This document shows, in pieces, positions 1 to 16,062 of a stretch of DNA of 29,854 nt. The DNA lies in IMG/VR virus record IMGVR_UViG_3300026264_000004, positions 1 to 29,854 of that record. One strand, 5' to 3'. A program made the position numbers and the translations under genes. Position 1 is the first letter of the stretch, and each line of letters starts with the position of its first letter. Under the pieces are notes generated by a model that was not told the origin of the DNA, did no database searches, and saw nothing but the letters and a program-made list of their open reading frames with translations. The DNA is from a virus.

Positions 1-2409
1 GGCGCTGAAACAAGCGAGTACGGACTATTAGCGGCTTATCAATATCTAGGAGTATCGAACAACGCATATGTTATTCGTGCAGATGTTGACTTAGCAGAAC
101 TAGAAGCATCTTCAACAGAACCAGCAGGCGTTATCACAAATGGAACACATTGGCATGATATCGCATCTACAGATTTCGGACTATTCAGACACGATGGAAC
201 AGACTGGGCTTCAGTATCAGTATTAGTTTTAAATGACACACCAGGAACAGGCAACGTTGAGACATCAGGTTCACCAATATCCAGTGTTGGTCAAATTGAT
301 GAGTACGCAGTTGTAACATCTACGGCTGACGTTACATATCATCAAAAAGTTGCGGGAACATGGTCACAACTAGGACCTACAGGAACATATGACACTCAAT
401 TTTCAATGTTTGCCCCAACTAAACAATCAGATGGCACGTCTACACTAGTAGCAGGCGATTCATATATACGCATGGCATTAGCAGGTGGTGGATTAGACGT
501 AGATTTATCGTCTTATAGTTCTACATCTGGATTGTTTACTACTATACAAGCACCAATTCACGCAGATGACGACACAGCATCAGCAACTTTGATTTCTGTA
601 GGCGATGTTTACACTAAACATCATGCAACACTTGGATCTTGGGAATTGAGACGCCACACAGGTTCGGCTACAACAGTTCTTACTTCAGATGCTATTTCAG
701 ATATAGTAACTATTACATGTGCATTTACTTTAGAAGGTGTTTCTAAGTCTTTCTCAGCGGTAACATTAGACGCAGTAATCACAGATTTACAAGCAGATGC
801 AGGATTAAATACAGCAAACGTTAGTGTTGAAAAAGTTGGAACAAACAAAATTCGTTTCACTAAGACAGACGGTCTTGAACTTAATTTAGTATTCTCAGCA
901 GGCCAAACAGATATAGGCTTCACAGTTGCTACAAATGTAGCATCAGTTTGGGAAGCATTAGTTTATCAAGCAAAAGCAACACAAATTACAGGTACAATTG
1001 CAGAAGGTACTCTATGGCATAGTTCAAGTCTAAACATTGAATTCTTAAAGAATACAAACGTTAGCGGAAGCATGACATGGGTAAAATATGCATGGTCAGA
1101 AGACACAGATAGTCTTGCTCCAAGCGAATGTCAACTAGTTTCAGGTGCTCCAGCAAAACGTAAAGATGGCACATCTGCACTAGTAACAGGCGACCTTTGG
1201 GTAGACGGTGACGCAGTTCCTTACGCAACAGTATGGCGCTGGTCAGGTACAGCATGGGTCAAATTAGACAATGCAGACCAATCATCTACAAACGGAATGG
1301 CATTTAGTCATTATTCACACGATGCACCTTATGATTCAAACGGTGTAGCAAACAGCAGAACAGTACATGCATCAGTAGATAATCCAGATTTACATCCAGA
1401 AGGTATATTGATGATTAACATGGACTACTCTACTTACAACGTTAAGAAATACACTAACGGTGCATGGGAATGGGCTTCAGGTATAAACACTGATGGTTCT
1501 GGTAAGTTCGGCACAGACGCACAACGTCATATGGTTGTCGAAGCAATGCAGGCAGCAATTTCTTCAAACGATGGAATTCGTTCAGAAGCAGTTTATTTCA
1601 ATCTAATCGCGGCTCCAGGATACTTCGAGTTAATGGACGAAATGATTACATTGAACAAAGACAAGAAAGAAATAGCATTCGTTATCGGTGATTGTCCAAT
1701 GACATTGAAATCAGATTCAACGTCAATGAAAGCATGGGGAACAGCAAATGTTCCAGCAGAAACTTACGCGGCAATTTATTACCCACATGGCTTGTCAAGT
1801 GACTTGTCAGGTAATGACGTAGTTATGCCTTCATCAGCAATCGCATTAAGAACTATCGCTTTTTCAGACCAGGTTTCATATCCATGGTTTGCACCAGCAG
1901 GACTTACACGTGGTGTAGTTTCAAACGCATCACAAGTTGGTTATGTAAATTCAGAAAATGAATTTGTTAAAGTTCAATTAAGTGAAGGTCAACGTGATGT
2001 TCTTTATGGACAACGTATAAACCCAATTGCAGACTTCCCAGCAACGGGAATGGCAGTTTATGGTCAGAAAACAACACAAGCAACTTCAACTGCTCTAGAC
2101 AGAGTAAATGTTGCACGTTTAGTTAACTACATGCGCCATAACTTAGACCAGATGTCTCGTGGATTCTTATTCGAGCAAAACGATAAGATTACTCGTGACA
2201 ATATGAGAGATGCAGTTGAACGTTTCTGTGGTAATCTTGTTACACAAAGAGGTTTATATGATTTCTTAGTTGTGTGTGATGATTCAAACAACACACCAGC
2301 ACGTATAGATAGAAATGAACTATGGGTTGATGTAGCAGTACAGCCAGCGAAATCAGTAGAATTTATTTATATTCCACTTCGCATCAGAAATACAGGCGAA
2401 ACACTATAA
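1..2409 (+). CDS. 18: Tail sheath protein, T4 gp18 family (5' end outside window)
   Basis: Contractile sheath subunit that polymerises around the tail tube and drives DNA injection. The frame is open from base 1, so the N-terminus lies outside the window; the internal ATG at 406 is not the start. The first residues (YLGVSNNAYVIRADVDL) are typical of the gp18 N-terminal region, and the C-terminal ~150 residues (GQKTTQ, RVNVARLVNYMR, NDKITRDNMRDAVERFC, ending RNTGETL) match the conserved polymerisation domain. The visible part is 802 residues, already longer than T4 gp18 (659). The extra length lies in a Ser/Thr/Gly-rich middle (about residues 120-430) that carries two related segments (see repeats at 430 and 1165). 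A strong terminator follows. The family assignment is secure; the function of the inserted domain is unknown. Confidence 0.93.
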   Translation, partial: GAETSEYGLLAAYQYLGVSNNAYVIRADVDLAELEASSTEPAGVITNGTHWHDIASTDFGLFRHDGTDWASVSVLVLNDTPGTGNVETSGSPISSVGQIDEYAVVTSTADVTYHQKVAGTWSQLGPTGTYDTQFSMFAPTKQSDGTSTLVAGDSYIRMALAGGGLDVDLSSYSSTSGLFTTIQAPIHADDDTASATLISVGDVYTKHHATLGSWELRRHTGSATTVLTSDAISDIVTITCAFTLEGVSKSFSAVTLDAVITDLQADAGLNTANVSVEKVGTNKIRFTKTDGLELNLVFSAGQTDIGFTVATNVASVWEALVYQAKATQITGTIAEGTLWHSSSLNIEFLKNTNVSGSMTWVKYAWSEDTDSLAPSECQLVSGAPAKRKDGTSALVTGDLWVDGDAVPYATVWRWSGTAWVKLDNADQSSTNGMAFSHYSHDAPYDSNGVANSRTVHASVDNPDLHPEGILMINMDYSTYNVKKYTNGAWEWASGINTDGSGKFGTDAQRHMVVEAMQAAISSNDGIRSEAVYFNLIAAPGYFELMDEMITLNKDKKEIAFVIGDCPMTLKSDSTSMKAWGTANVPAETYAAIYYPHGLSSDLSGNDVVMPSSAIALRTIAFSDQVSYPWFAPAGLTRGVVSNASQVGYVNSENEFVKVQLSEGQRDVLYGQRINPIADFPATGMAVYGQKTTQATSTALDRVNVARLVNYMRHNLDQMSRGFLFEQNDKITRDNMRDAVERFCGNLVTQRGLYDFLVVCDDSNNTPARIDRNELWVDVAVQPAKSVEFIYIPLRIRNTGETL
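430..459 (+). repeat. Intragenic direct repeat, copy 1 (sheath gene)
   Basis: About 30 bases encoding DGTSTLVAGD. They match bases 1165-1194, which encode DGTSALVTGD, at nearly all positions. The two copies are 735 bp apart in the same frame of the sheath gene. Confidence 0.7.
1165..1194 (+). repeat. Intragenic direct repeat, copy 2 (sheath gene)
   Basis: Second copy of the DGTSxLVxGD-coding segment at 430-459. It is followed by a Trp-rich stretch (VWRWSGTAWVKLDN) typical of the inserted region of marine T4-like sheath proteins. Confidence 0.7.
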
Positions 2410-2431
2410 TATAAACTAGAAGGTTTAGTTT

Positions 2432-2459
2432 AAAACCCCTCCTCAGTGAGGGGTTTTTT
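2432..2459 (+). terminator. Intrinsic terminator after tail sheath gene
   Basis: Perfect 10-bp stem (AAAACCCCTC / GAGGGGTTTT) with a 6-base loop, running into a T tract. It sits 22 bases after the gp18 stop and separates gp18 from the next late unit. Confidence 0.9.
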
Positions 2460-2481
2460 ATTGGGTGACTATATAGTAACT

Positions 2482-2490
2482 GATAAATAC
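2482..2490 (+). promoter_or_regulatory. Late promoter box GATAAATAC
   Basis: Exact copy of the recurrent GATAAATAC box, which resembles the T4 late consensus TATAAATA. It follows the sheath terminator and lies only 4 bases before the ATG at 2495. A transcript starting about 6 bases downstream would therefore be almost leaderless. Confidence 0.65.
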
Positions 2491-2494
2491 AGTT

Positions 2495-3892
2495 ATGCGA
2501 ATAAATGAAGTAATATTACACGAAGAAATGCTAGACGTAAAGTCTGTGGTAACTTCGTCTATCAAAAAATTAGATAAAGTTTTCAAAAATAACAACTACG
2601 AATTAAGAATAGTAGGTGGTGCTGTTAGAGATATTGCTTTAGGTAAATTACCTAAAGATATTGACTTGGCAACTGATGCTACACCAGACGAAATGATTGC
2701 TATACTTGATAAAGCAAATATCAAACATATACCAACAGGTATAGACCATGGTACTATCACAGCAATCTTAGGCAAAGAACCATTTGAAATCACAACATTA
2801 CGAGCAGACACAGAAACTGACGGCAGACATGCTGAAGTTGAATTTGTAACTAACTGGGAAGAAGATGCTAAACGTAGAGACCTAACATACAATGCTATGA
2901 GCATGGATATGGAAGGTAATGTATTTGATTACTTTAACGGTATGGACGACTTACAAGATAAAGTCAGTAAGTTTGTGGGCGATGCCAGACAAAGAATACA
3001 AGAAGATTACTTGCGTATACTTAGATATTTTCGTTTTCAAGGTAGACTATCAACACCAACTTGGAATGAAGATACATTAAAAGCAATTAGTTCAAATGTA
3101 AAAGGTTTACAACAAATAAGTGCTGAACGTGTTTGGCAAGAAATGAGTAAAGTTCTCGCAGGTAACAATGTTGCTAACGTTTTAACTCATATGACTAAAT
3201 CAGGTGTCAGTAAAGTTATTGGATTATCAACAAACGACTTAAACAAAGTAAAAGATAAAGGCAACTCTATTGTAGCATTAGCACAAATGGGCAACACAAT
3301 AGATATAGCAAAACGTTGGAGATTAAGTAACAACGAAGCAGTTCTGTTAGACTTTCTCATTAAGAATAAAACTAACACACTTGATAAAAAGAAAGTAGAA
3401 GATATGATTGCTGACGGAGTTGATAAGAATTTAATTTCCGCACTAGCAACTTTACAAGGTAAAGAAGATATGGCAAGTCATGTAAGTTCTGCTAAAGTGC
3501 CAGATTTTCCGATAACTGGCTCAGATTTAATTGCTAAAGGTATGAATCCAGGTCCAGAGATGGGTGCGAAACTTAATTTATTAAAACAACAATGGAAGAA
3601 AAGTAACTTTACTGCTACTAAAGATGAATTGTTAAAAGAAGTAAAAGAATTCGTTACACTTAAAAAGGGTGACCAAACTGTAAGAGTTCCTAAGTCTAGA
3701 CTTGAGTTTTATTTAGGTCAACATTATGAACTTGTTGAAAAAATAACAAAATCTACACCAATGGGTGATGTTATTAAAGACTTTTATAAGAGTGATGCGC
3801 CACAATTCAAAGGTAAAAGCAAAGCAAAGAAAAGACAAATGGCTATTGCGGCTAAACTATCTATGAACGAAGAAGAAAAAGATGCTCATTAG
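2495..3892 (+). CDS. CCA-adding enzyme / poly(A) polymerase-type nucleotidyltransferase
   Basis: Class II tRNA nucleotidyltransferase-type protein, 465 aa. Motifs in order are GGAVRD (41-46), the metal-binding DIDLAT (55-60), RRDLTYNA (127-134) and the base-selecting helix RIQEDYLRILRYFRF (167-181). This family adds CCA or A residues to RNA 3' ends; which activity applies here cannot be told. A C-terminal half of unknown function ends in a Lys-rich tail (FKGKSKAKKRQMAIAA). The N-terminus, MRINEVILHEE, looks like a T4-type capsid-targeting peptide and is unusual for this enzyme; an ATG at 2528 (Met12) would remove it. The gene follows a late box and a terminator, so late expression is inferred. 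Its last 11 bases overlap the HAD gene downstream. Family assignment is strong; packaging in the virion is a hypothesis. Confidence 0.88.
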   Translation: MRINEVILHEEMLDVKSVVTSSIKKLDKVFKNNNYELRIVGGAVRDIALGKLPKDIDLATDATPDEMIAILDKANIKHIPTGIDHGTITAILGKEPFEITTLRADTETDGRHAEVEFVTNWEEDAKRRDLTYNAMSMDMEGNVFDYFNGMDDLQDKVSKFVGDARQRIQEDYLRILRYFRFQGRLSTPTWNEDTLKAISSNVKGLQQISAERVWQEMSKVLAGNNVANVLTHMTKSGVSKVIGLSTNDLNKVKDKGNSIVALAQMGNTIDIAKRWRLSNNEAVLLDFLIKNKTNTLDKKKVEDMIADGVDKNLISALATLQGKEDMASHVSSAKVPDFPITGSDLIAKGMNPGPEMGAKLNLLKQQWKKSNFTATKDELLKEVKEFVTLKKGDQTVRVPKSRLEFYLGQHYELVEKITKSTPMGDVIKDFYKSDAPQFKGKSKAKKRQMAIAAKLSMNEEEKDAH

Positions 3893-4496
3893 AGAGATAA
3901 TTTCAGAAAAACCAGAAAGCAAACCGATTGTTTATTTGGATATGGATGGAGTTCTAGCAGATTTCTTTTCAGAGTGGGCAAAATTGGCAGGAATTAAAAC
4001 AGGAAACTATAAAGATATTCCACCAGCAAACGTGGACAAAACACTGGACAAAATGATTGGCACAGATTTTTTTGCTAAACTTCCAAAATTTCCTACAGCA
4101 GATAAATTAATTCAAATGATTATAAATAATTTTGGCTCATATAAAATATTAAGTTCGCCACTTAGATATGACCAAGAGAATAGTAAAAAGCATAAGATAG
4201 ATTGGATTGGAAGAAAACTAAAGATTAAACCAAGTGAAACTATTATAGTTAGTGACAAAGGGTCATATGCTACACAACCAGATGGTACACCAAACATATT
4301 AATTGATGACTTGGGTAGAAACATTCAGAACTGGATGAACAATGGTGGACTTGGAATTAAATATCAAGCAGATGAAGACCCATTATCAAAAGTACAACAA
4401 TGGTTAGAACAGTTTAAAAAAGGAGAAGTAACACAAGAAACTAATACAAATGAACGACAAGAACACATATTTAAGAATGATGAATCTAAGTACTAA
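3882..4496 (+). CDS. HAD-superfamily 5'(3')-deoxyribonucleotidase-like phosphatase
   Basis: Predicted phosphatase of 204 aa that would remove phosphate from nucleoside monophosphates, fitting phage nucleotide metabolism. Motif I is YLDMDGVLADF, with nucleophile and acid D20 and D22. Motif II is ILSSP (S91/S92). Motif IV is the acidic pair D142-D143 in NILIDDLGRNIQNW. The arrangement matches the NT5C-type 5'-nucleotidase family. The ATG lies inside the end of the nucleotidyltransferase gene (11-base overlap), implying translational coupling and late expression. The N-terminus MLIREIISEKPE precedes the catalytic fold and resembles both the upstream protein's N-terminus and T4 capsid-targeting peptides. 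Substrate specificity is not readable from the sequence. Confidence 0.82.
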   Translation: MLIREIISEKPESKPIVYLDMDGVLADFFSEWAKLAGIKTGNYKDIPPANVDKTLDKMIGTDFFAKLPKFPTADKLIQMIINNFGSYKILSSPLRYDQENSKKHKIDWIGRKLKIKPSETIIVSDKGSYATQPDGTPNILIDDLGRNIQNWMNNGGLGIKYQADEDPLSKVQQWLEQFKKGEVTQETNTNERQEHIFKNDESKY

Positions 4497-4680
4497 AACC
4501 ATAGAACTTTTGTTAGTAAATTTGAAGAATATGCATAGTGCTATGTTAAAAGATTGTGCTGATAAACAAAGAATTGGTAAATTAATTATTGAATTGGAAA
4601 CAGAATTAATGAAAATAGATAAAGACAATCAAAGTCATATTAGATTAGGTACGTCATCATTTGCGAGGATGTTTGAATAA
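4450..4680 (+). CDS. Small helical hypothetical protein
   Basis: Predicted 76-aa protein, not recognised. It is largely helical and charged (for example KTIELLLVNLKNMHSAMLKD and KLIIELETELMKID), and might form a short coiled coil. The first ATG gives a 47-base overlap with the HAD gene. ATGs at 4477 and 4480 (Met10 and Met11) would cut this to about 20 bases, and none has a clear Shine-Dalgarno sequence, so the start is uncertain. The stop overlaps the next start by one base (TAATG), so it belongs to the same translationally coupled unit as the zinc-ribbon gene. Confidence 0.6.
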   Translation: MNDKNTYLRMMNLSTKTIELLLVNLKNMHSAMLKDCADKQRIGKLIIELETELMKIDKDNQSHIRLGTSSFARMFE

Positions 4681-5018
4681 TGCAAGTTTATAAAGAAACA
4701 ATATGGCACTTCACTTGTCAATCATGTAATGGTTTTTGGACTGTTGCGGCTTCAGACAAATGGGTACCAAAAGAATTGTTCTGTACTCATTGTGGTTCAA
4801 AGCGAACACACAATAAAGAACTCATTGAATGGGTAGATGATAATGATTATATTCCTACAAGAAATGATAGTCAACACGAAAATTATTTAGAATTTGAAAA
4901 AGAGTTTCTTAAAGAGGACAAAGATGAGTTATGTTCGTGTGGACATAATCCAATAGAATGTGACTGTGCGGCAGGATGTAAGTGTGGATGTAGGAAGAGA
5001 TATTTAAGGGCATATTAA
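4680..5018 (+). CDS. Zinc-ribbon protein with C-terminal Cys-rich cluster
   Basis: Predicted 112-aa protein. The N-terminal half is a four-cysteine zinc ribbon (C13-x2-C16 ... C35-x2-C38, with Trp at 20 and 28), a fold common in small phage nucleic-acid or protein-binding proteins. After an acidic linker the C-terminus carries seven cysteines and one histidine in 20 residues (C85, C87, H89, C94, C96, C100, C102, C104), mostly C-x-C pairs, which looks like a second metal-binding module. The tail is basic (RKRYLRAY). The start is coupled to the previous stop. No specific function is known to me. A similar Cys cluster occurs in the 617-aa protein at 9406. Confidence 0.75.
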   Translation: MQVYKETIWHFTCQSCNGFWTVAASDKWVPKELFCTHCGSKRTHNKELIEWVDDNDYIPTRNDSQHENYLEFEKEFLKEDKDELCSCGHNPIECDCAAGCKCGCRKRYLRAY

Positions 5019-5044
5019 CATACAACTTAATTATTAGTAAAATA

Positions 5045-5053
5045 GATAAATAC
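5045..5053 (+). promoter_or_regulatory. Late promoter box GATAAATAC (tail tube)
   Basis: Exact late box 54 bases before the gp19 start, in the 80-bp gap after the zinc-ribbon gene. It is followed by a good ribosome site (AGGAGA, 5085-5090). Confidence 0.75.
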
Positions 5054-5098
5054 TAGTGTTAAATCATAGTTCAAAAATTATTACAGGAGATTAATAAA

Positions 5099-5695
5099 AT
5101 GAGTAGAACATTAAACAATTTTGGTGTACCAACAGATTCTGGTGATGGAGTCACAGGCACTGGTATATTACAACCAAAACTTAACTATAGATTCCGTGTA
5201 GTAGTTGCTGGTTTTGGCGGAACTGGAACAAGTTCACAAGAATTCACAAGACAGGTTATGAATGTATCCCGTCCAAAGGTATCACATGAGTCAATTCCAT
5301 TAGATTCGTACAACTCACGTATGTACGTTATGGGCAAGCACACATGGGAACCAATTACAATTACATTGCGTGATGACATCGCAAACAATCTAACTAAACT
5401 AGTTGGTCGACAAGTACAATCACAGTTAGATCATAAAAGTCAAAGAGGTCCTTCAGCAGGTACTAACTATAAGTTTTCAACATTGATTGAAATTCTAGAT
5501 GGTAACTCTGGTGACGCAACAGAACAATGGCAATTAGAAGGTTGTTTCATTACTAACGCTGATTATTCACAAACTGATTATGCAGTGTCAGATCCAGTTA
5601 CAATTACGCTAACGCTTCAGTATGATAACGCAGTATTGAATGATGATATTATGCCAGATATGGACTTTGTGTCGGATTCTACTATAGCCGGTTAA
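5099..5695 (+). CDS. 19: Tail tube protein, T4 gp19 family
   Basis: Major subunit of the inner tail tube through which DNA passes; it stacks as hexamers inside the sheath. Diagnostic features are the early beta strand LNYRFRVVVAGFG (28-40), the IPLDSYNSRMYVMG segment (66-79), WEPITITLRDD (83-93), the LEGCFITNADYSQTDYAVSD region and the closing strand VTITLTLQYDNAVL. At 198 aa it is somewhat longer than T4 gp19 (163), with extra residues at both ends. It has a strong ribosome site (AGGAGA) and its own late box. Downstream is a second protein with the same fold. Confidence 0.92.
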   Translation: MSRTLNNFGVPTDSGDGVTGTGILQPKLNYRFRVVVAGFGGTGTSSQEFTRQVMNVSRPKVSHESIPLDSYNSRMYVMGKHTWEPITITLRDDIANNLTKLVGRQVQSQLDHKSQRGPSAGTNYKFSTLIEILDGNSGDATEQWQLEGCFITNADYSQTDYAVSDPVTITLTLQYDNAVLNDDIMPDMDFVSDSTIAG

Positions 5696-5713
5696 TAAAC
5701 GAGGCGCAAGCCA

Positions 5714-7372
5714 ATGGCTGATGATAGAAAAAGTGCTAAGAACACATGGAAGAGAGTTTTAGCCGATAGTGCTAACGCAAAACATAGATTTGGATTTGCA
5801 GGAACTCATGGGTCTCCTCTTATCGACCCAACGTCTGGGCTTGGTCCAACTCCTAAACTCTCTGACCTTTGGTTTATAGAATTTAAGACAGTATCTGGTG
5901 GAAGCACATCCGATACATCTCGCATCTCTGCTTTAGCAAAATCAGTATCTCCAATTTCTATCTCAACATCAACTATGCCTATTGATGCATATGGCAAAAG
6001 AATTTATGTTCCTACCCGTGTAGATTTTCCAGAAGTAGGAATTACGATGTATGATACAGTTGACGGTCAAATGTTTAAGATAGCAGAATCTATATATAGT
6101 AAATTTTTTAAGAATCAAGATGCTAAAGTTACTGGTGCAAATGCAGAACAAGTTCTAACAGACAGTCATTTACATGGTAGAAAAATACCAGATGACAAAC
6201 ACGAGTATTATCATCAGCATTTTGAGAAAATCACAATATATCACTTCTTTGGTAATCTTGAAGATTCAGCACCACCCGGTAAAAAAGACATGTTATTCGG
6301 CGCCCGTGCGACTGCAGGACAAGGAGTAACAAGTACAGGCTCTGTTCAAAAGATTGAATTAATTAATCCATTAGTTACAAATATTACCTTTTCTCCTAGT
6401 GATTATAGTATTGCAGAGTTAAGAACTACGGACCTTTCAGTTCAGCCAGAAAATGTAATAATAGGTAACGTAGATGATGCTGTAGCATTCCCACATTGGA
6501 TGACATTAGGAATGGATTATATGATGTCAGAATTAAGTCCACAAATGAAGAGAAAAGATTTAGATGGTATTTATCCTGATTGGTTTGGCGATACTGGGTA
6601 TGGACCTAGAACCCACGATCCTAGATTTAAGAAAAAGAGTAGAGATGATGGAACTAAAGAATGGGAAGATGCCAAAGGCAAAAAACGAAGTAATGTATTT
6701 GGTGATGATAAGAGCAAGAGAGAACAGGCGGAAAGTCTTACAGATCCTTTAAGAATAGAACAACAAGAATACAACGACACTAACAGAAAACTTAATGAAC
6801 TAATGACATTATATAATGCCGCAATTCAAAATCCTAATGAACAAGGAAACAAAGCATTAGAGATGGCTTTAAAAGACAGAATTGGCGTAATAGATGCGGC
6901 AAGGGCAAATAGATTTTCTAAAGAATCAAGTAAAACTTATATAGACGAGGGCAATCAATTTGATACTCCTTATATTGCAACATATACAAATCCAGATATT
7001 CCAACATTTGGCGGTATCGGAGATAGTAATCCACCAGGAACTAAGTTTCCAAGATATTCTACAGATTTAGGATCAGCAATGATAAGAGAACTTGTTGGAG
7101 CATTTTTCGGCAAACGTTCTTTTAATGTTAATAATATCAAAGGTGCTATAATAAATAAGATAATTGGAAATGATGGTAAATCAGAGAGTAAAAATATTCT
7201 AGGCTCAATATTAACAGATGGCATGATTTCAAGTAAGAAAGGCGCATATGTTACGACAACAAAAGCAAATCAATCCATACCGACTAATAAACCAATAGTA
7301 TATAAAACTAATTCTACTGACCGGGCAATTGGCGTGAGTAAAGCACTCTTAAGAAAATTCTTAGGACAATAA
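5714..7372 (+). CDS. Second tail-tube-fold protein (gp54/gp48-like tube-baseplate protein)
   Basis: Predicted 552-aa tail protein. Its N-terminal ~260 residues repeat the gp19 pattern: LWFIEFKTV (52-60), MPIDAYGKRIYVP (88-100, matching IPLDSYNSRMYVM of gp19), FPEVGITMYDTVDG, then KITIYHFFGNLED and a closing region around INPLVTNITFSPSDYSIAELRTTDLSV. T4 gp54 and gp48, which cap the baseplate and start tube polymerisation, share this fold, and position directly after gp19 fits. The remainder is hydrophilic, charged and low in recognisable motifs, and may contact other baseplate proteins. The fold assignment is good; whether it is gp54, gp48 or another tube-fold protein is uncertain. A weak GAGG ribosome site precedes the ATG. 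Confidence 0.72.
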   Translation: MADDRKSAKNTWKRVLADSANAKHRFGFAGTHGSPLIDPTSGLGPTPKLSDLWFIEFKTVSGGSTSDTSRISALAKSVSPISISTSTMPIDAYGKRIYVPTRVDFPEVGITMYDTVDGQMFKIAESIYSKFFKNQDAKVTGANAEQVLTDSHLHGRKIPDDKHEYYHQHFEKITIYHFFGNLEDSAPPGKKDMLFGARATAGQGVTSTGSVQKIELINPLVTNITFSPSDYSIAELRTTDLSVQPENVIIGNVDDAVAFPHWMTLGMDYMMSELSPQMKRKDLDGIYPDWFGDTGYGPRTHDPRFKKKSRDDGTKEWEDAKGKKRSNVFGDDKSKREQAESLTDPLRIEQQEYNDTNRKLNELMTLYNAAIQNPNEQGNKALEMALKDRIGVIDAARANRFSKESSKTYIDEGNQFDTPYIATYTNPDIPTFGGIGDSNPPGTKFPRYSTDLGSAMIRELVGAFFGKRSFNVNNIKGAIINKIIGNDGKSESKNILGSILTDGMISSKKGAYVTTTKANQSIPTNKPIVYKTNSTDRAIGVSKALLRKFLGQ

Positions 7373-7388
7373 TGACAAGGGAACTATA

Positions 7389-7652
7389 ATGAAAATAGAT
7401 ATATTAACTGCAAAATTATTGAAAAAGGGATTTACTCAACAAAAAGCAGAAGCATATGCGGTAGAACTTACAAACATTGCAAAATTATATGGTGTAAGCC
7501 CGTATGACTTTGTTGATGAACTTTCAGAAGATTTTTCTTTCAATGACTTGGGAGCATTCGTCTTTAATAATGCATTGCGATTTGGATATAAGACGGGAAA
7601 GATGACTCCGCGAACACCAAATACTTATATCGCAAGAGCAATTATTAAATAA
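7389..7652 (+). CDS. Conserved-looking 87-aa protein between tail and head-completion genes
   Basis: Predicted 87-aa protein, not recognised. It is predominantly helical: two N-terminal helices (KLLKKGFTQQKAEAYAVELTNIAKLY) and a mid-region rich in Asp/Phe. It ends in a basic stretch (KTGKMTPRTPNTYIARAIIK). There is no signal peptide or membrane segment. A ribosome site AAGGGA precedes the ATG. The stop overlaps the start of the gp4-like gene by one base (TAATG), so it is probably co-translated with a virion assembly factor. A structural or assembly role is inferred from position only. Confidence 0.7.
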   Translation: MKIDILTAKLLKKGFTQQKAEAYAVELTNIAKLYGVSPYDFVDELSEDFSFNDLGAFVFNNALRFGYKTGKMTPRTPNTYIARAIIK

Positions 7653-8125
7653 TGGCAAAATTCCATCAAGGCAAATACCAAATATTAAATCAATCAAAAT
7701 ACTCAGGAAGTGGAATGCCCACTTTTAGAAGCAGTTGGGAACAGACTTTCATGCAGTTTTGTGATACAAATCCAAATGTAATGGCATGGGCAAGTGAGCC
7801 TGTTAGAATTTCATATCAAAATCCAATAACTGGCAAAATAACATCATATGTTCCTGATTTTGTTATCGTATATAGAGATGCTAAAGGTAAGAAAAACGCA
7901 GAATTAGTTGAAATAAAGCCAATGAATCAATCTAATCCTAAATTTGCACGTGGTAGGGCACAACAGACACAAGTAGCAGTAAACTATGCTAAGTGGGATG
8001 CCGCAACACATTGGGCAAAAAAACGAGGTATGAAATTTAGAGTTCTCAATGAGAATGATATTTACGCCAATACTAAGAAACCTAAAGCAGTTAAGAAACC
8101 CGTTAAGCCCAAGAAACCAAGATAA
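7652..8125 (+). CDS. 4: Head-completion nuclease-fold protein, T4 gp4 (gp50/65) family
   Basis: Acts after DNA packaging to make heads competent for tail joining. The 157-aa length is close to T4 gp4 (150). Conserved features are RSSWEQTFMQFCD (26-38), the WASEPVRISY segment, YVPDFVIVY with D69, and LVEIKP with E87-x-K89. E30, D69 and E87-x-K89 form a TnsA/PD-(D/E)xK-like nuclease signature as in gp4. VNYAKWDAATHWAKKRGMKFRVL is the conserved C-terminal helix and strand. A Lys/Pro-rich tail (about residues 138-157) is extra. The last gene of its unit, it is followed by a 156-bp gap. Confidence 0.88.
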   Translation: MAKFHQGKYQILNQSKYSGSGMPTFRSSWEQTFMQFCDTNPNVMAWASEPVRISYQNPITGKITSYVPDFVIVYRDAKGKKNAELVEIKPMNQSNPKFARGRAQQTQVAVNYAKWDAATHWAKKRGMKFRVLNENDIYANTKKPKAVKKPVKPKKPR

Positions 8126-8281: not shown

Positions 8282-8794
8282 ATGACTAAAAAACTAGAAG
8301 AAACATTCAATATTAAACCAGCAGACGAGGGTGAAGAAGAACTTCAGAAAGAAACTCCCTCTATTGAAGAGTCAAAAGAATTAACAGAGATTCTATATGC
8401 TGAATTAAAGACTACTGAGAAGATTGACAACGCATTACCACTTGTACAAGACCTTAATCAGCACGATAAAGAAATGGATGATATTCATAAAAAGGCATTG
8501 GACGCTTTCAATGATTTACTTACATTAGGTATGAATGTAGAAGTACACGCTGGTGCTAAATTGCTAGAAACAGCAAATCAGATGCTGAAAACTGCCATGG
8601 AAGCAAAAGATAGTAAAGTCGATAGAAAATTAAAGATGATTAACCTTCAATTGCAAAAAGCAAAGTTGGATCATAATATTTCTAAAAACAAAGATGGTTT
8701 TGAACTTGAAAGTGAGGGTGCAGTCACAATTAGCAGAAATGAACTGTTAAAACGAATTGATTCTGCCCAAAAAGATATAGAAAATGATAAATAA
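8282..8794 (+). CDS. 16: Probable terminase small subunit, T4 gp16-like
   Basis: Predicted 170-aa, highly charged and almost wholly helical protein. The size (T4 gp16 is 164 aa) and layout fit gp16: a disordered acidic N-terminus (1-45), a central antiparallel helical pair (about 60-115; DKEMDDIHKKALDAFNDLL and HAGAKLLETANQMLKTAMEAKD) and a helical C-terminal part. gp16 forms a ring that regulates the gp17 packaging motor and recognises DNA. There is no catalytic motif to confirm it, so the call rests on size, helical pattern and proximity to gp4 and gp17. It has its own late box but only a poor ribosome site. Confidence 0.62.
   Translation: MTKKLEETFNIKPADEGEEELQKETPSIEESKELTEILYAELKTTEKIDNALPLVQDLNQHDKEMDDIHKKALDAFNDLLTLGMNVEVHAGAKLLETANQMLKTAMEAKDSKVDRKLKMINLQLQKAKLDHNISKNKDGFELESEGAVTISRNELLKRIDSAQKDIENDK
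8786..8794 (+). promoter_or_regulatory. Possible late promoter box GATAAATAA
   Basis: Variant of the late box with one change (final A instead of C). It covers the last codons and stop of gp16 and lies 54 bases before the ATG at 8840, a distance also seen at gp19. Confidence 0.4.
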
Positions 8795-8839: not shown

Positions 8840-9409
8840 ATGAAAACATTTAAACAATACTTAACAGAGTCAACAAAAGAACATAAATTCACATTAAGAT
8901 TCTGTTGTGACTTAGATGAAGCACAGGAAAATCGTATTGAGACATTTTTGACAAAATACGACCTTAAAACGATGTCAAAGACATCTACAACGCCTATCAC
9001 TAAGAATCCAATGTTTTTTAATAATGCAACAAATTCAAAAGTTTCAAAAATTGATATAGTTACTGGTTATCCATTGTCAGCAGATATTCTACAACAACAA
9101 TTAAGTGATATACTTGGTGTTTCACTTGAGAATGTAGTTGTTCATCCAGAAGGATGGGAACCTGAAGCAGAATCGGAAGATGACGAAGATAAAAAAGCAC
9201 TATTAGGCACAGACTATGATGATAAATCAGATGACGGTGCAAATTACGGTAAAACTTTTGTAGATAAATTTTTAAACAATTTAGAGAAAAAAGAACATGA
9301 CACGGTTGAGAACGCATTAAGCGTTAAGACAAAATCTGATCCAGCACAGGAACAGATGTCAAAAGACGAACAATCAAGTGCATCAGTTATCAGTGGAGAT
9401 GAAAAATGA
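8840..9409 (+). CDS. Putative prohead/internal head protein with capsid-targeting N-terminus
   Basis: Predicted 189-aa protein. It begins MKTFKQYLTES, which closely resembles the capsid-targeting sequence of T4 internal protein III (MKTYQEFIAEA). In T4 such peptides bring proteins into the prohead core and are cut by the gp21 protease after L/I-x-E; here the predicted cut is after Glu10. The start at 8840 was chosen over the in-frame ATG at 8828 because it begins exactly at this motif and has GGA upstream. The middle (about 65-105; YPLSADILQQQLSDILGVSLENVVVHPEG) looks folded. The C-terminal third is acidic and disordered. It overlaps the next gene by 4 bases (ATGA). The role inside the head is inferred; the body is not recognised. 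Confidence 0.72.
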   Translation: MKTFKQYLTESTKEHKFTLRFCCDLDEAQENRIETFLTKYDLKTMSKTSTTPITKNPMFFNNATNSKVSKIDIVTGYPLSADILQQQLSDILGVSLENVVVHPEGWEPEAESEDDEDKKALLGTDYDDKSDDGANYGKTFVDKFLNNLEKKEHDTVENALSVKTKSDPAQEQMSKDEQSSASVISGDEK

Positions 9410-11259
9410 GCAAACAATATAACCTATCAACAACAGAGGACAACGGGCAGTCAGTAACGACTAGCCAGACTGTCACAGAGCATCCAGAAGAAATTCTACG
9501 ATTGATGAAACTAGCAGGCCTAGAAAACGCACAAGTAGTTGCTGAGGATGACTCAGTGTTTGAACCTACTCCTGCGAATGATAAATTAGATTTAGATGAT
9601 TACTCTAAAAAATCTCCAGAAAGTATTGCAAAACAAAAGAAAACAATTCAACCAACACTTGGTGATAATCCATTAGAGTACTCTTTAGACGAAAATGAGA
9701 TTTATGAAGCAATGATGGAAGAATTTGATAAGTCTGAAGAAGTTAACGAAGACAACACAAGACTTCAACGTGCAATTCAAACTAATTTTGGTGAGAATGG
9801 AGAAGGTGACTCCGATTATGACGCCTACTGGCCTGACTATATGAATAATAAAGACGTGATTGTAGCAATTTTCGGTAGTAATGTACCAAAAACAATTTTC
9901 GATGCCTTTAATAAGCACAAAGCCTATAGCAAGAATGATGAAGATAGAGCGAAAAATAAAAAAATTCCATCAGAACGAAACAACCATGCCCCATATTATC
10001 CAGAAAACCGAGATGAAGAAATATTAGCAGACCTTGGTGAAAGGGTCCGTGATACAATTGTACTATACGCTGAAGATATTGGCATTGAAACGCTTGAAGA
10101 AGTTAACGAAGAATTAACAGCAGGACAAAAGAAATTACCTGCTGGATTACAAAAAGCAATTCTTGCCAAACAAGGCAAAAAAGATGAAGCAGTTGAAGAA
10201 ACTGACGAAGAATCTACAGAAGAAGTTGTTGTCGAAGACTTTGAAGTTGATCCTGATTCTGTCGGATATGATGACCATATTAAAAGACTAGCAAGAAAAA
10301 GGGGCAATATGTCAACAAAAGACATGATAGATGCTGGCATTCCAGTCCACCAACAAAAGGTAGTTCATGTAAGCACAGATGATGACGATTCCTCGAATAA
10401 TCCTTATAAAGATGAAAAAGGACCAGTTAAAATGAGAAAAGCAGTATTGACAAATGACTTTGATGAATCAAAAGAAGTAGTAACAGAAGAAAAACTAACT
10501 GAAGGTTGCTCTTGTGGTTGTAGTTCAGGTTGCAATTGTGGACCAGAATGTGGTTGTGGTTGTAACGCAGTTAATGAAGACCAAGATAGAATGGCTAAAT
10601 TAGCAGGTCTTAATGAAAGAGGTGCAACACGTCCAATGAACTTTGCAGGTACTAAGGATCATCGTATTAAAGGTGACACAAGTAAATCAGGACCTGAGGT
10701 GGATACTCTTAAACATGTTGATAAAATACAAAAATTAGCATGGAATAAGGCTAAAGCCAAGCCATCACATCATGATTCGTCTTCTAAACAAGCAAAGATT
10801 GATATTATTATGCCTAAGAAACGTGATACTGTTGCTATTAAAGGTGACTTAACTAAAGTAAACCCAAATGCAAAATCGTCAAAAATTGATATTAAAGGTG
10901 ACTTAACTAAAGTAAACCCAAATGCAAAAGAGCCAAAAATTGGTATTAAAGGTGACTCAAGTAAATCAAAACTTCGTGGAGAAGATTTAGAAAGACTTAA
11001 GAAATTAGCAGGTATTCAAGAAGATGGTTCGGAAATGAATCCTAGCAGACTACCACATCCTGATATTGACCCTGGAGACCAATCATTTGATTGGCCAGAA
11101 GATGGACCTAAAATTGATATCGATAATATGGAAAAAATGCCAAAAGTAACAGTTAAAGGACCTAAGAACTATGATGACAGAATTCAAAGACTAGCAAGGG
11201 CGAAAGATAAAGCCAATCCAAAAGAACCTCTTAGTCTAAAAGCATATCTTAATTTTTAA
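9406..11259 (+). CDS. Large acidic repeat protein of the virion module (probable prohead core or structural)
   Basis: Predicted 617-aa, highly charged, probably largely disordered protein without a recognised enzyme domain. Visible parts are a KLAG-type motif at 33-39 (LMKLAGL); a short possibly folded region at 115-170; KKLPAGLQKAILAKQGKK (242-259); an eight-cysteine cluster at 368-386 with C-x-C spacing; RMAKLAGLNE (395-404); four IKGD repeats (421, 478, 496 and 514), two of them in an almost identical 18-residue tandem; LERLKKLAGIQE (528-539); and DRIQRLARAK near the end. The L/I-x-E that often follows KLAG could be cut by a gp21-type prohead protease. Start codon overlap with the upstream gene suggests coupling. 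The role is inferred from context only. Confidence 0.7.
   Translation: MSKQYNLSTTEDNGQSVTTSQTVTEHPEEILRLMKLAGLENAQVVAEDDSVFEPTPANDKLDLDDYSKKSPESIAKQKKTIQPTLGDNPLEYSLDENEIYEAMMEEFDKSEEVNEDNTRLQRAIQTNFGENGEGDSDYDAYWPDYMNNKDVIVAIFGSNVPKTIFDAFNKHKAYSKNDEDRAKNKKIPSERNNHAPYYPENRDEEILADLGERVRDTIVLYAEDIGIETLEEVNEELTAGQKKLPAGLQKAILAKQGKKDEAVEETDEESTEEVVVEDFEVDPDSVGYDDHIKRLARKRGNMSTKDMIDAGIPVHQQKVVHVSTDDDDSSNNPYKDEKGPVKMRKAVLTNDFDESKEVVTEEKLTEGCSCGCSSGCNCGPECGCGCNAVNEDQDRMAKLAGLNERGATRPMNFAGTKDHRIKGDTSKSGPEVDTLKHVDKIQKLAWNKAKAKPSHHDSSSKQAKIDIIMPKKRDTVAIKGDLTKVNPNAKSSKIDIKGDLTKVNPNAKEPKIGIKGDSSKSKLRGEDLERLKKLAGIQEDGSEMNPSRLPHPDIDPGDQSFDWPEDGPKIDIDNMEKMPKVTVKGPKNYDDRIQRLARAKDKANPKEPLSLKAYLNF
10837..10944 (+). 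repeat. 54-bp tandem repeat, two copies, inside the 617-aa gene
   Basis: Copies at 10837-10890 and 10891-10944 are identical over their first 39 bases and differ at a few later positions. Each encodes IKGDLTKVNPNAK plus five residues. Diverged units begin at 10665 and 10945 (IKGDTSKS, IKGDSSKS). Confidence 0.9.
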
Positions 11260-13382: not shown

Positions 13383-15683
13383 ATGGCTATAAATTTAGAT
13401 AATATCGCAACAAAAGTAATGAAATTAATGCAAGGCAGTGGACTTCAAATGAAGATGTTTGATGCTACTAGTGGTAAAAGTGTAGCAGTCCCAGGCGATG
13501 CAAGATTTTTTTATGTCAAAGAACCAAACATGATGGTTCATATTGACGATAATACTAGAGAATTAAAATTTCATATTGGAGAAGATATCGATATCGATAA
13601 TCCTGCTGTTAATAATATGATGCATCAACTAAAATCTATGGCACGTACTAATATGTTAGATTTCGATATTCGTTCATTCGGAAAACATATAGAACCTAAA
13701 AATTATGCATATAAGGTTGAACAAAATAAGGAGCAAACCATGACTGACCACGTCAATGAAGGCATGGGCCCATTGTCTGGGTCATCACGCACAAGCCGAC
13801 AAACATTAGAAAATGTGCGATTAATATTAAAACACCGTGCGCCAGTAAACGAGGAATCTCGTGGCTCACGTTCACGTAACATCACAGCAATTTTTGTTGA
13901 ATCAGGAGAAGGCGAGCGTTTCAAGTACCCATTTATACATTTGAATGGTGCAAGAGCAATGGCGAGACACGTAGCATCAGGTGGAGTTCCACATGATATA
14001 GTAGGAGAGGCTATTGTAGAGTTGTCTGACAACTTATCAAGATTGAAAGAGTTTATGGGCGTAGTTAACAGACAGCAATTAGTAAACGAAACTAATCGTG
14101 CTGATATATGGAATGTTAAACGTAGTATGAATTCAATTAAAGAAACGGTACAGAGAATTCAAGGTACGAAAGGATATGCTAGTTTTGTAGAAGGTATTGC
14201 TCTTAAAGAAGAAAAAATACAAGAAGAAATTTCAGAAGAAGCAGTAGATACATTTGTACAAAAGTTTACAAAATCAACATTTGAAGAATCATTAAGAGAT
14301 ATTTTCCCATTGCTACACAAAGTCAACGAAGAAGAATTGCAAAATCGTAGACTCAATCAAGTAGATAGAGTTAGAGAAATAATTTCGGCAAGAACAAAAA
14401 AGACTGACGAAATAATCAATGTGATATCTTTCGGTGCACCGAAAGGTGATTATGACTATGAGCAGATTAAGAAGCAATATGCTGAACCTCGTACACCGGA
14501 AGAAGCGGCACAAAAGAAAATTGATATGATAGCAATGACATTTGATGATTTGGCTGACAGAATTGAAGTAGACACACTAGATGATAAAAATAAGAAAAAG
14601 AAAGGTCACGACAGAGCGGCAGAATTGTCATTCTTTTTGACTGATATTGCTAATGATATTCGCAAGAATCCAGCAGGAGTTGATAAAGAAGAAATTAAAG
14701 TTGCTGGTCATTTACTGAAAATGTCTAAAGTAAAGATAGAAAAACAGACAAAAACAGCAGATGAAAATTGGGATGTGATGGTTGAATCAGCATTCTCAAA
14801 GTTTGACCCAGATAGTGTTATTCAGGAAAGTCAACCAAGTATCAACGAAGAAGTTCAGAAGATTAATGAACTCGCTTGGATTGGATGGCAAATATTTCAA
14901 TGGGGCGAGCCCTTAGGCGCGGAATTAAAATATAATGGCGAACACGTTTACTGGTTAGATTCAACTGATAGAGAATATGTTGAAAAAATAAAGGATAAAG
15001 TTAGACCTAATATAAGAAACTTTACAGGCGACCAGGACGATGGGTCATTAGAAAATCCAAACCAGAATAGATATAAGTTTGACCCAGATGATATGACTGA
15101 TGAAGAAAGACATGACTACGAACTAGATAAAACAGAAAAAGAAGCAGGTTTTGGTGGTGGATCACCACGTGCAACTATTAGGAATTTATCTAAAGAACAA
15201 AAAGCAAAACTATACAATGAAAAAGTTAGACCTAATTTGAGAAACAATGTAAATGAAGACGATGACAGATTGTCACCTGATAATAATGATTTTATTGAAT
15301 ATGTACGTTCGTATTACGGAAAGGATGAATTTCGTGCTAGTGAGTTCAAAAATGACGATGGTTCTGAAGGTGTCAGCATAGAAGAAATTAAAAAAGCAAT
15401 AGAAATGATGGCTAATGACGATACTTGGAATTGGGTAGGTGGCGACACAGATGATAGAATAGAAATTGCAGATATTATGCTTAGGAATCGAGGCATTGAC
15501 CCAAACGCCGCCGCTAATAAACATGCAGATGCATTTAGGAAAAAAGAACTTGCTAGAGTAGATACTCAGGACAAACGTGATAGAGAAGAACATCCCGAAT
15601 GGTTCGACGGGTCAGAAGATTCTGGAGATGAAGCGGCATATGCAAGAGCCGAAGAAAGACTTAAAAAATTAGCAGGCGTTTAA
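13383..15683 (+). CDS. Large probable virion structural protein with nested in-frame start
   Basis: Predicted 766-aa protein resembling large conserved hypothetical proteins of marine T4-like phages, by memory of the pattern RSRNITAIFVESGEGERFKYPFIHLNGARAMARHV. An N-terminal domain (1-119) is followed by Met120, which has a perfect internal ribosome site (AAGGAG at 13728-13733, ATG at 13740). Next come a conserved domain (about 135-300), helical charged regions, two KVRPN(I/L)RN repeats (about 540 and 615), an acidic region with EF-hand-like Asp clusters, and a C-terminal ERLKKLAGV shared with neighbouring proteins. It has its own late box and is followed 13 bases later by a coupled small gene. 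A structural or prohead role is inferred from context. No enzyme motif is visible. Confidence 0.75.
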   Translation: MAINLDNIATKVMKLMQGSGLQMKMFDATSGKSVAVPGDARFFYVKEPNMMVHIDDNTRELKFHIGEDIDIDNPAVNNMMHQLKSMARTNMLDFDIRSFGKHIEPKNYAYKVEQNKEQTMTDHVNEGMGPLSGSSRTSRQTLENVRLILKHRAPVNEESRGSRSRNITAIFVESGEGERFKYPFIHLNGARAMARHVASGGVPHDIVGEAIVELSDNLSRLKEFMGVVNRQQLVNETNRADIWNVKRSMNSIKETVQRIQGTKGYASFVEGIALKEEKIQEEISEEAVDTFVQKFTKSTFEESLRDIFPLLHKVNEEELQNRRLNQVDRVREIISARTKKTDEIINVISFGAPKGDYDYEQIKKQYAEPRTPEEAAQKKIDMIAMTFDDLADRIEVDTLDDKNKKKKGHDRAAELSFFLTDIANDIRKNPAGVDKEEIKVAGHLLKMSKVKIEKQTKTADENWDVMVESAFSKFDPDSVIQESQPSINEEVQKINELAWIGWQIFQWGEPLGAELKYNGEHVYWLDSTDREYVEKIKDKVRPNIRNFTGDQDDGSLENPNQNRYKFDPDDMTDEERHDYELDKTEKEAGFGGGSPRATIRNLSKEQKAKLYNEKVRPNLRNNVNEDDDRLSPDNNDFIEYVRSYYGKDEFRASEFKNDDGSEGVSIEEIKKAIEMMANDDTWNWVGGDTDDRIEIADIMLRNRGIDPNAAANKHADAFRKKELARVDTQDKRDREEHPEWFDGSEDSGDEAAYARAEERLKKLAGV
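14997..15020 (+). repeat. 24-bp direct repeat, copy 1 (766-aa gene)
   Basis: Encodes the KVRPNIRN segment. It differs from 15222-15245 at two of 24 positions, with copies 225 bp apart and in frame. Confidence 0.75.
15222..15245 (+). repeat. 24-bp direct repeat, copy 2 (766-aa gene)
   Basis: Encodes the KVRPNLRN segment; partner of 14997-15020. Confidence 0.75.
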
Positions 15684-15696
15684 ATCGGAGAAAACA

Positions 15697-16062
15697 ATGG
15701 ATCAAGAAAGACTTAGCAAATTAGCAGGTATTATGCCTGAAGATGTAGAAGCAGATGAAGAATTAATTACCAAGATTGCTGAATGGATTTATCACGAAAG
15801 TTCTGAACCAATAAGTGAAATAGAGCATTTAGTTAAAAGGGCTGATGCAGTAGGTGATTATATTGACGCTGTTTCAGAACGCAAAGAAACAGGTATTAAC
15901 GAAATAGAAATCAATCCAGGAGATGAGATTGCAAACCACTTAAACGATATTGAAGAATACATTTCTACAATAGATTGTGACAATCTATCTGAGATGGCAA
16001 TGAGAATTCAAGATACCATTGAGGAAATTAGAACTAAACTCAATTGGGATCAATATGACTAA
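15697..16062 (+). CDS. 121-aa acidic helical protein with N-terminal KLAG motif
   Basis: Predicted 121-aa, strongly acidic, helical protein of unknown function. It begins MDQERLSKLAGIMPED, nearly repeating the last residues of the preceding protein (EERLKKLAGV) and the KLAG motifs of the 617-aa protein at 9406. Four helices are likely (about 20-38, 45-62, 75-92 and 95-115). A GGAG ribosome site lies just upstream and the gap to the previous gene is 13 bases, so it belongs to that late unit. It is the last late gene before the terminator and early promoters. It could be a partner or scaffold-type protein of the virion module. Confidence 0.75.
   Translation: MDQERLSKLAGIMPEDVEADEELITKIAEWIYHESSEPISEIEHLVKRADAVGDYIDAVSERKETGINEIEINPGDEIANHLNDIEEYISTIDCDNLSEMAMRIQDTIEEIRTKLNWDQYD

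Follow-up and report, generated by a model that had tools for sequence, protein, structure and literature searches.

Capsid-targeting-like N-termini on a CCA-adding enzyme and a HAD nucleotidase in the late block of a T4-like phage

The enzyme genes and their late-block context

The window analyzed here, 29,854 bases in its entirety, is a fragment of a marine T4-like phage. On its plus strand, a tail sheath gene (406..2409; phrog_10581, E 5e-172) is followed by the genes for a CCA-adding enzyme and an NT5C-type HAD nucleotidase, two small ORFs and a tail tube gene (5099..5695, plus strand; phrog_4542, E 6e-57). Downstream are located a second tube-like gene, a gp4-like head-closure gene, ORF8840, the large terminase, a virion structural protein and then replication genes. 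The CCA-adding tRNA nucleotidyltransferase (CCA; 2495..3892, plus strand, 465 aa) matches PF01743 (PolyA_pol, E 6e-36), PF12627 (E 8e-9) and phrog_2244. As expected for this class, its PolyA_pol head domain contains the GG..RD, DxD and RRD motifs, which are intact and invariant here as GGAVRD, DID and RRD. Its C-terminal module SDAPQFKGKSKAKKRQMAIAAKLS (3761..3877, plus strand) is common to unrelated phage proteins; in the form SDAPQFKGKSxEKRRQMA it is also present in seven otherwise separate families (L048, L069, L072, L076, L077, L080 and L081). The HAD nucleotidase (3882..4496, plus strand, 204 aa; PF06941 (NT5C), E 8e-8; phrog_2643) begins with MLIREIISEKPE. Its invariant DMDG, SSPL and DD motifs provide the DxD nucleophile, the motif II serine and the motif IV DD of NT5C-type 5'(3')-deoxyribonucleotidases. 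The HAD gene shares its first 11 nt with the 3' end of the CCA gene, with the start/stop overlap GATGCTCATTAG. ORF8840 (8840..9409, plus strand) encodes a protein of 189 aa. Initiation at an alternative ATG in the same frame (8828) would extend the protein by MEHT, but the three relatives G002, G003 and G004 start at the 8840 position. The peptide SVISGDE lies at or near the end of two different late proteins, one encoded at 8840-9409 in the window and the other at 51783-53477 in G002.

A T4-type late promoter box, GATAAATAC, is present directly before the CCA gene (2482..2490, plus strand), with GATAAATA 5 nt away from the ATG. Further GATAAATAC boxes precede the tube gene (5045), ORF8282 (8246), the terminase gene (11755) and ORF13383 (13348), and a late-promoter-like box, GATAAATAA (8786..8794, plus strand), is found before ORF8840, as in G002. 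These boxes directly support the preliminary description of both enzymes as late-expressed. The box-to-start-codon distance is 27-46 nt at the other window genes versus 5 nt at CCA, and this short spacing is kept with GATAAATAC in 24 of 25 homologous upstream regions. Together with T4 late-promoter geometry, it implies that the CCA late mRNA would be leaderless, as the transcript is predicted to begin approximately with the first base of the start codon (window 2482-2497). Another short peptide, [RL]xKLAG[LIV], occurs at the ends and in the interior of late proteins (8 families versus 0.35 expected), including those encoded in the window at 9406-11259, 13383-15683 (C-end) and 15697-16062 (N-end) and in G002 at 55810-56931 (C-end). 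The G002 ORF that follows the protease gene ends with it. It is possibly another core-binding peptide.

A family of N-terminal tags

CCA starts with MRINEVILHEE (2495..2527, plus strand; LxE at 8-10), HAD with MLIREIISE (3882..3908, plus strand) and ORF8840 with MKTFKQYLTE (8840..8869, plus strand; F4, Y7, L8 and E10). The ORFs, coordinates and peptides given in the preliminary description were correct, and the T4-type copy MKTFKQYLTES is indeed present at 8840. The formula proposed there, M-[KR]-x5-[IL]-x-E, fits CCA and ORF8840 but not HAD, which has Leu at position 2 and IxE at 7-9. Leu-Ile at HAD positions 2-3 is explained in part by the overlap of the HAD start with the CCA stop.

Motifs were counted in 1313 protein families from related loci, whose ORFs and starts were defined with a simple gene caller of our own, and compared with a null obtained by independent shuffling of the N-terminal columns. 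The original formula was too loose: it was found in 5 families versus 3.46 expected and is thus not enriched. A less strict pattern in which Asp could replace Glu was only weakly above expectation. The motif M-[KR]-[ILVF]-x-E-[ILVF] was present in 27 families versus 2.13+-1.43 expected (maximum 7 in 400 shuffles), and M-[KRL]-x-x-[ED]-h-h-x-[ED] in 15 versus 0.65+-0.80 (maximum 4 in 500 shuffles). The T4-type motif MKx[FY]xx[FYLI][ILVM]xE was found in 2 families versus 0.10 expected. No M[KRL]xx[ED]hhx[ED] was found among 272 genes of other viral contigs, a weak control as 0.12 was expected. The tagged families are mostly unrelated, and their genes are clustered in runs. In L103, eight consecutive ORFs (1601-8064) start with a tag, as do four others around the HAD gene at 9998; similar runs are seen in L122 and L105. 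We also scanned IMG/VR, for which the match lists include near-duplicates. Among the matches listed, MKIxEIIxE was N-terminal in 69 of the 80 examined, 31 of these 69 having Ala or Ser as the next residue, and the T4-type MKxFxEFLxEA was N-terminal in 79 of 81. MKIxEIIxE occurred in at least 120 stretches, versus 25 in the whole collection for its scrambled version (8 of 25 N-terminal). Carriers of MKxFxEFLxEA include cytidylyltransferase, GNAT, RlpA-like, glucosaminidase-like, ORF8840-like and many unknown proteins.

The CCA tag is conserved across 24 distinct 5' sequences. In pairwise comparisons of these, the nonsynonymous share of codon differences is 0.28 for codons 2-11 versus 0.52 for codons 12-21, and synonymous changes are seen within the tag (CGA/AGA/CGT for Arg2, ATA/ATT/ATC for Ile3). 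Codons 2-11 are under purifying selection, and the combination of synonymous change with a low nonsynonymous share means that the peptide is translated and selected. Fused and distant homologues have the enzyme domain but lack the peptide. HADs of cultured relatives and many distant homologues have no clear tag, which counts against a targeting function; in HTVC008M, where the HAD gene is near a cytidylyltransferase gene, HAD starts with MKYSAFKAETL.

The conservation of the peptide in close CCA homologues would be expected if the tags were ordinary enzyme N-termini, kept as part of the fold. This explanation is largely refuted and we consider it highly improbable. In AlphaFold models, pLDDT is below 50 for CCA residues 1-10 (in a moderate model, mean 73.7) and for HAD residues 1-9, and the predicted folds follow these peptides, with a confident HAD fold from about residue 11. 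The fused and distant homologues lacking the peptide, and the same peptide ahead of unrelated proteins, also argue against it. As modelled, removal of the tag would leave both enzymes whole. An origin in base composition, with the A/T-rich early codons favoured at translation starts yielding M-K-I-N-E-I, is more improbable still. Lys and Ile codons are A/T-rich and Lys is common at position 2, but the column shuffles retain position-specific composition and nevertheless gave 2.1 expected families against 27 observed. Moreover, scrambling the peptide while keeping its codons gives a less frequent sequence that in most cases is not N-terminal, and the tags are clustered in consecutive genes. By these computations the tag is a genuine, modular motif located N-terminally of the enzyme fold, and these peptides very probably constitute one functional tag family.

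Relation to the T4 signal, prohead protease and virion proteins

The ten N-terminal residues of T4 IPIII are sufficient as capsid-targeting signal (CTS), with positions 4 and 7 involved in targeting and 8 and 10 in processing (PMC9026906). Asp at position 10 blocks processing and not targeting (PMC9026906). Like the CTS, the peptides described here lie at the extreme N-terminus, comprise about 10 residues outside the mature fold and are common to otherwise unrelated proteins. The T4 signal sequence is MKTYQEFIAEA, and one viral contig (G033) carries MKTYQEFISEA. MKIxEIIxE corresponds to this signal minus one starting residue, with I3, I6, I7 and E9 at the same spacing. In this one-residue-shorter register, I3, I6, I7 and E9 of HAD are equivalent to T4 positions 4, 7, 8 and 10. 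The hydrophobic or aromatic residues of T4 positions 4 and 7 are F4 and Y7 in ORF8840 and I3 and I6 in HAD, and the register of CCA is ambiguous. The [IL]-x-E site is L8-H-E10 in CCA, L8-T-E10 in ORF8840 and, one residue earlier, I7-S-E9 in HAD. MRINEVILHE has one extra residue between Glu5 and Glu10 compared with MKIxEIIxE, which counts against targeting. As judged from these alignments, the HAD tag is the better match to the T4 functional positions, and the probable assignment as a capsid-targeting signal is more secure for HAD than for CCA.

Neither gp21 nor gp23 is encoded within the 29,854-base window, which also counts against targeting; the window is a fragment. In G002, where CCA is 78% identical, a gp21-type protease gene is located in the head-gene block. 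Among records of at least 130 kb, gp21 is present in 7 of 7 with MKIxEIIxE and in 5 of 7 with a T4-type tag. Profile searches for the T7-type connector (PF12236) and the sheath (PF04984) were uninformative for the tagged records without gp21/gp23. One of these records (G022) has a portal gene (phrog_213) and a gp46-like gene, and the contig with MKTYQEFISEA also belongs to this group. The T4-type tag may therefore occur also in phages without gp21.

The two tag types are exchanged between homologous proteins. Cytidylyltransferases start with MKKFSAFLNEA in S-SM1, MKTFAEFLKEA in L248, MLLKELLEAQ in L105 and MILNELLEPN in L093, and the L093 cytidylyltransferase forms a fusion protein with a HAD that has 69% identity to that of the window. 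DUF6267-like proteins likewise carry either type; their family was assigned with Pfam in L103 and by visual inspection in the remaining cases. CCA and HAD are also found in a single ORF, as CCA-HAD in G002 (823 aa) or HAD-CCA in L092, L094 and L095, and longer fusions are HD_4-CCA-NT5C (L047, 1216 aa) and NT5C-CCA (L057, 1184 aa). Most long fused ORFs start with a tag (MRINEV, MRLHEF, MKIKEL or MKIFEV) and their inner domain has none; from the fused CCA-HAD ORFs it follows that the HAD peptide is dispensable behind a tagged partner. Within the 22 residues preceding the inner domain, [IL]xE is present in 5 of 12 cases versus 1.2 expected (p 0.003), in linkers that are Glu-rich, so that it is only suggestive as a sign of cleavage. 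The giant mosaic ORFs (L047, 8627-12277; L049, 9038-12100; L057, 8132-11686) join CCA, NT5C, HD_4 (RelA/SpoT-like, in L047), GNAT-like and recurrent basic modules (MYHWCANMKSGRKK, NTTxDVxPGE).

Tagged proteins have been detected in virions of other phages. The S-SM1 cytidylyltransferase T4-GC190 (SSM1_190, starting with MKKFSAFLNEA) was found in purified virions by Sullivan et al. (PMC3037559). Packaging, considered unusual for these enzyme families in the preliminary description, therefore has a precedent in a nucleotidyl-transferring enzyme. In phage PA5oct, the ORF8840 homologue EST35_0202 (MKSFRDYYDAS) is a structural protein identified by mass spectrometry. Three other PA5oct proteins marked ESI-MS/MS start with MKINDIITEG (encoded just after the portal gene), MKIKDILVES and MKLFEVFTLY, and one motif-bearing protein is not so marked. 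Tags are thus present in 3 of 93 detected versus 1 of 265 non-detected proteins (p 0.055), a difference in the expected direction based on few tags and on a detected set that includes ribonucleotide reductase and other likely contaminants.

Proposed head packaging of the tagged enzymes

We propose that MLIREIISE and MRINEVILHE are diverged capsid-targeting sequences of T4-like phages of aquatic bacteria, which we consider likely. The unfolded peptide ahead of the enzyme would bind the prohead core while the head assembles, and a gp21-type protease may subsequently cleave behind the Glu of [IL]-x-E. Both the CCA-adding enzyme and the nucleotidase would thereby remain intact within the head and be injected with the DNA. 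They could serve to repair tRNA 3' ends and to control nucleotides during the first minutes of infection. Processing of the CCA and HAD tags by gp21 is slightly favoured on present evidence; for their injection and its benefit to the phage, we rely on inference. The central idea of the preliminary description, capsid-targeting-like N-termini on late enzymes, gains strength from the motif statistics, the tag exchange, the S-SM1 and PA5oct mass spectrometry precedents, the late promoters and gp21 in relatives, but in a form other than its formula.

The tag could instead direct proteins to another assembly, such as the tail, the neck, an intracellular enzyme complex or a replication compartment. 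The tagged window genes lie between the sheath and tube genes, and an association with the tail is conceivable for the tagged lytic transglycosylase, lysozyme and PG-binding proteins. The match to functional positions of the T4 head signal, the position of one mass spectrometry-positive PA5oct tag next to the portal gene and the co-occurrence with gp21 make this unlikely. It is also conceivable, if rather doubtful, that the proteins are targeted to the prohead core without cleavage and remain full-length. Targeting and processing are separated by Asp at position 10 in T4 (PMC9026906), and many tags of relatives, such as MRIFEVDRK and MKIFEVTEV, have no [IL]xE at 7-10. On the other hand, the CCA homologues of L038, L040 and L041 retain [IL]xE despite residues inserted before it, and the excess of [IL]xE in fused-domain linkers points, weakly given their Glu-richness, in the same direction.

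The peptides resemble the CTS of T4 IPI, IPII and IPIII in their N-terminal position, length of about 10 residues, unrelated carriers, hydrophobic residues with [IL]-x-E and a gp21-type protease in the clade. They differ in that the common form is one residue shorter, with aliphatic rather than aromatic targeting residues, and in that the putatively packaged carriers include recognizable enzymes and belong to very many families. T4-GC190 of S-SM1 is likewise a nucleotidyl-transferring enzyme of a marine T4-like phage with a CTS-like N-terminus. Its family is joined to a HAD domain in L093 and has a HAD gene as neighbour in L105 and HTVC008M. In contrast to CCA and HAD, it has a T4-type tag and was detected in virions by mass spectrometry (PMC3037559). 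The packaged ADP-ribosyltransferase Alt of T4 would be similar in role, as a head-packed enzyme delivered at infection, but is a different enzyme that is processed by gp21 at both ends (PMC9026906). The N-terminal signal of P1 DarB is sufficient to package a foreign protein (PMC9024508), but it requires more than 9 residues, with 30 as the upper bound, and has no common sequence, and P1 apparently has no separate scaffold. Ejection proteins of the giant phages phiKZ and SPN3US are numerous, packaged and matured by a protease that cuts after Glu (PMC9026906), with an apparently different signal.

The proteins that phages inject besides their DNA are mostly unknown, as they have to be found by proteomics, phage by phage. 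Should the tag prove to be a capsid signal, a list of injected proteins could be drawn up from sequence for very many uncultured phages, and it would be rich in enzymes that could act early in infection, for tRNA repair, nucleotide hydrolysis and acetylation, a RelA/SpoT-like domain, ClpS and cell-wall enzymes. A review has remarked that the CTS may allow T4-like phages to carry various proteins; beyond this remark, we found no paper in the open-access literature that applied the T4 signal to marine phages. More tentatively, aquatic T4-like phages might possess a large and exchangeable set of head-packaged effectors, readable from the N-terminal code, including polyproteins cut by the prohead protease in the capsid before injection. 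Its members would be CCA, HAD, cytidylyltransferases, GNATs, HD_4 (RelA/SpoT-like), ClpS, lysozymes, transglycosylases and many unknown proteins, with the 1216-aa HD_4-CCA-NT5C ORF as an example of a polyprotein. In L324, L346, L239 and L266, tagged proteins include ClpS, identified by Pfam, and protein-kinase-like and ADP-ribosyltransferase-like proteins recognized by eye, without Pfam matches.
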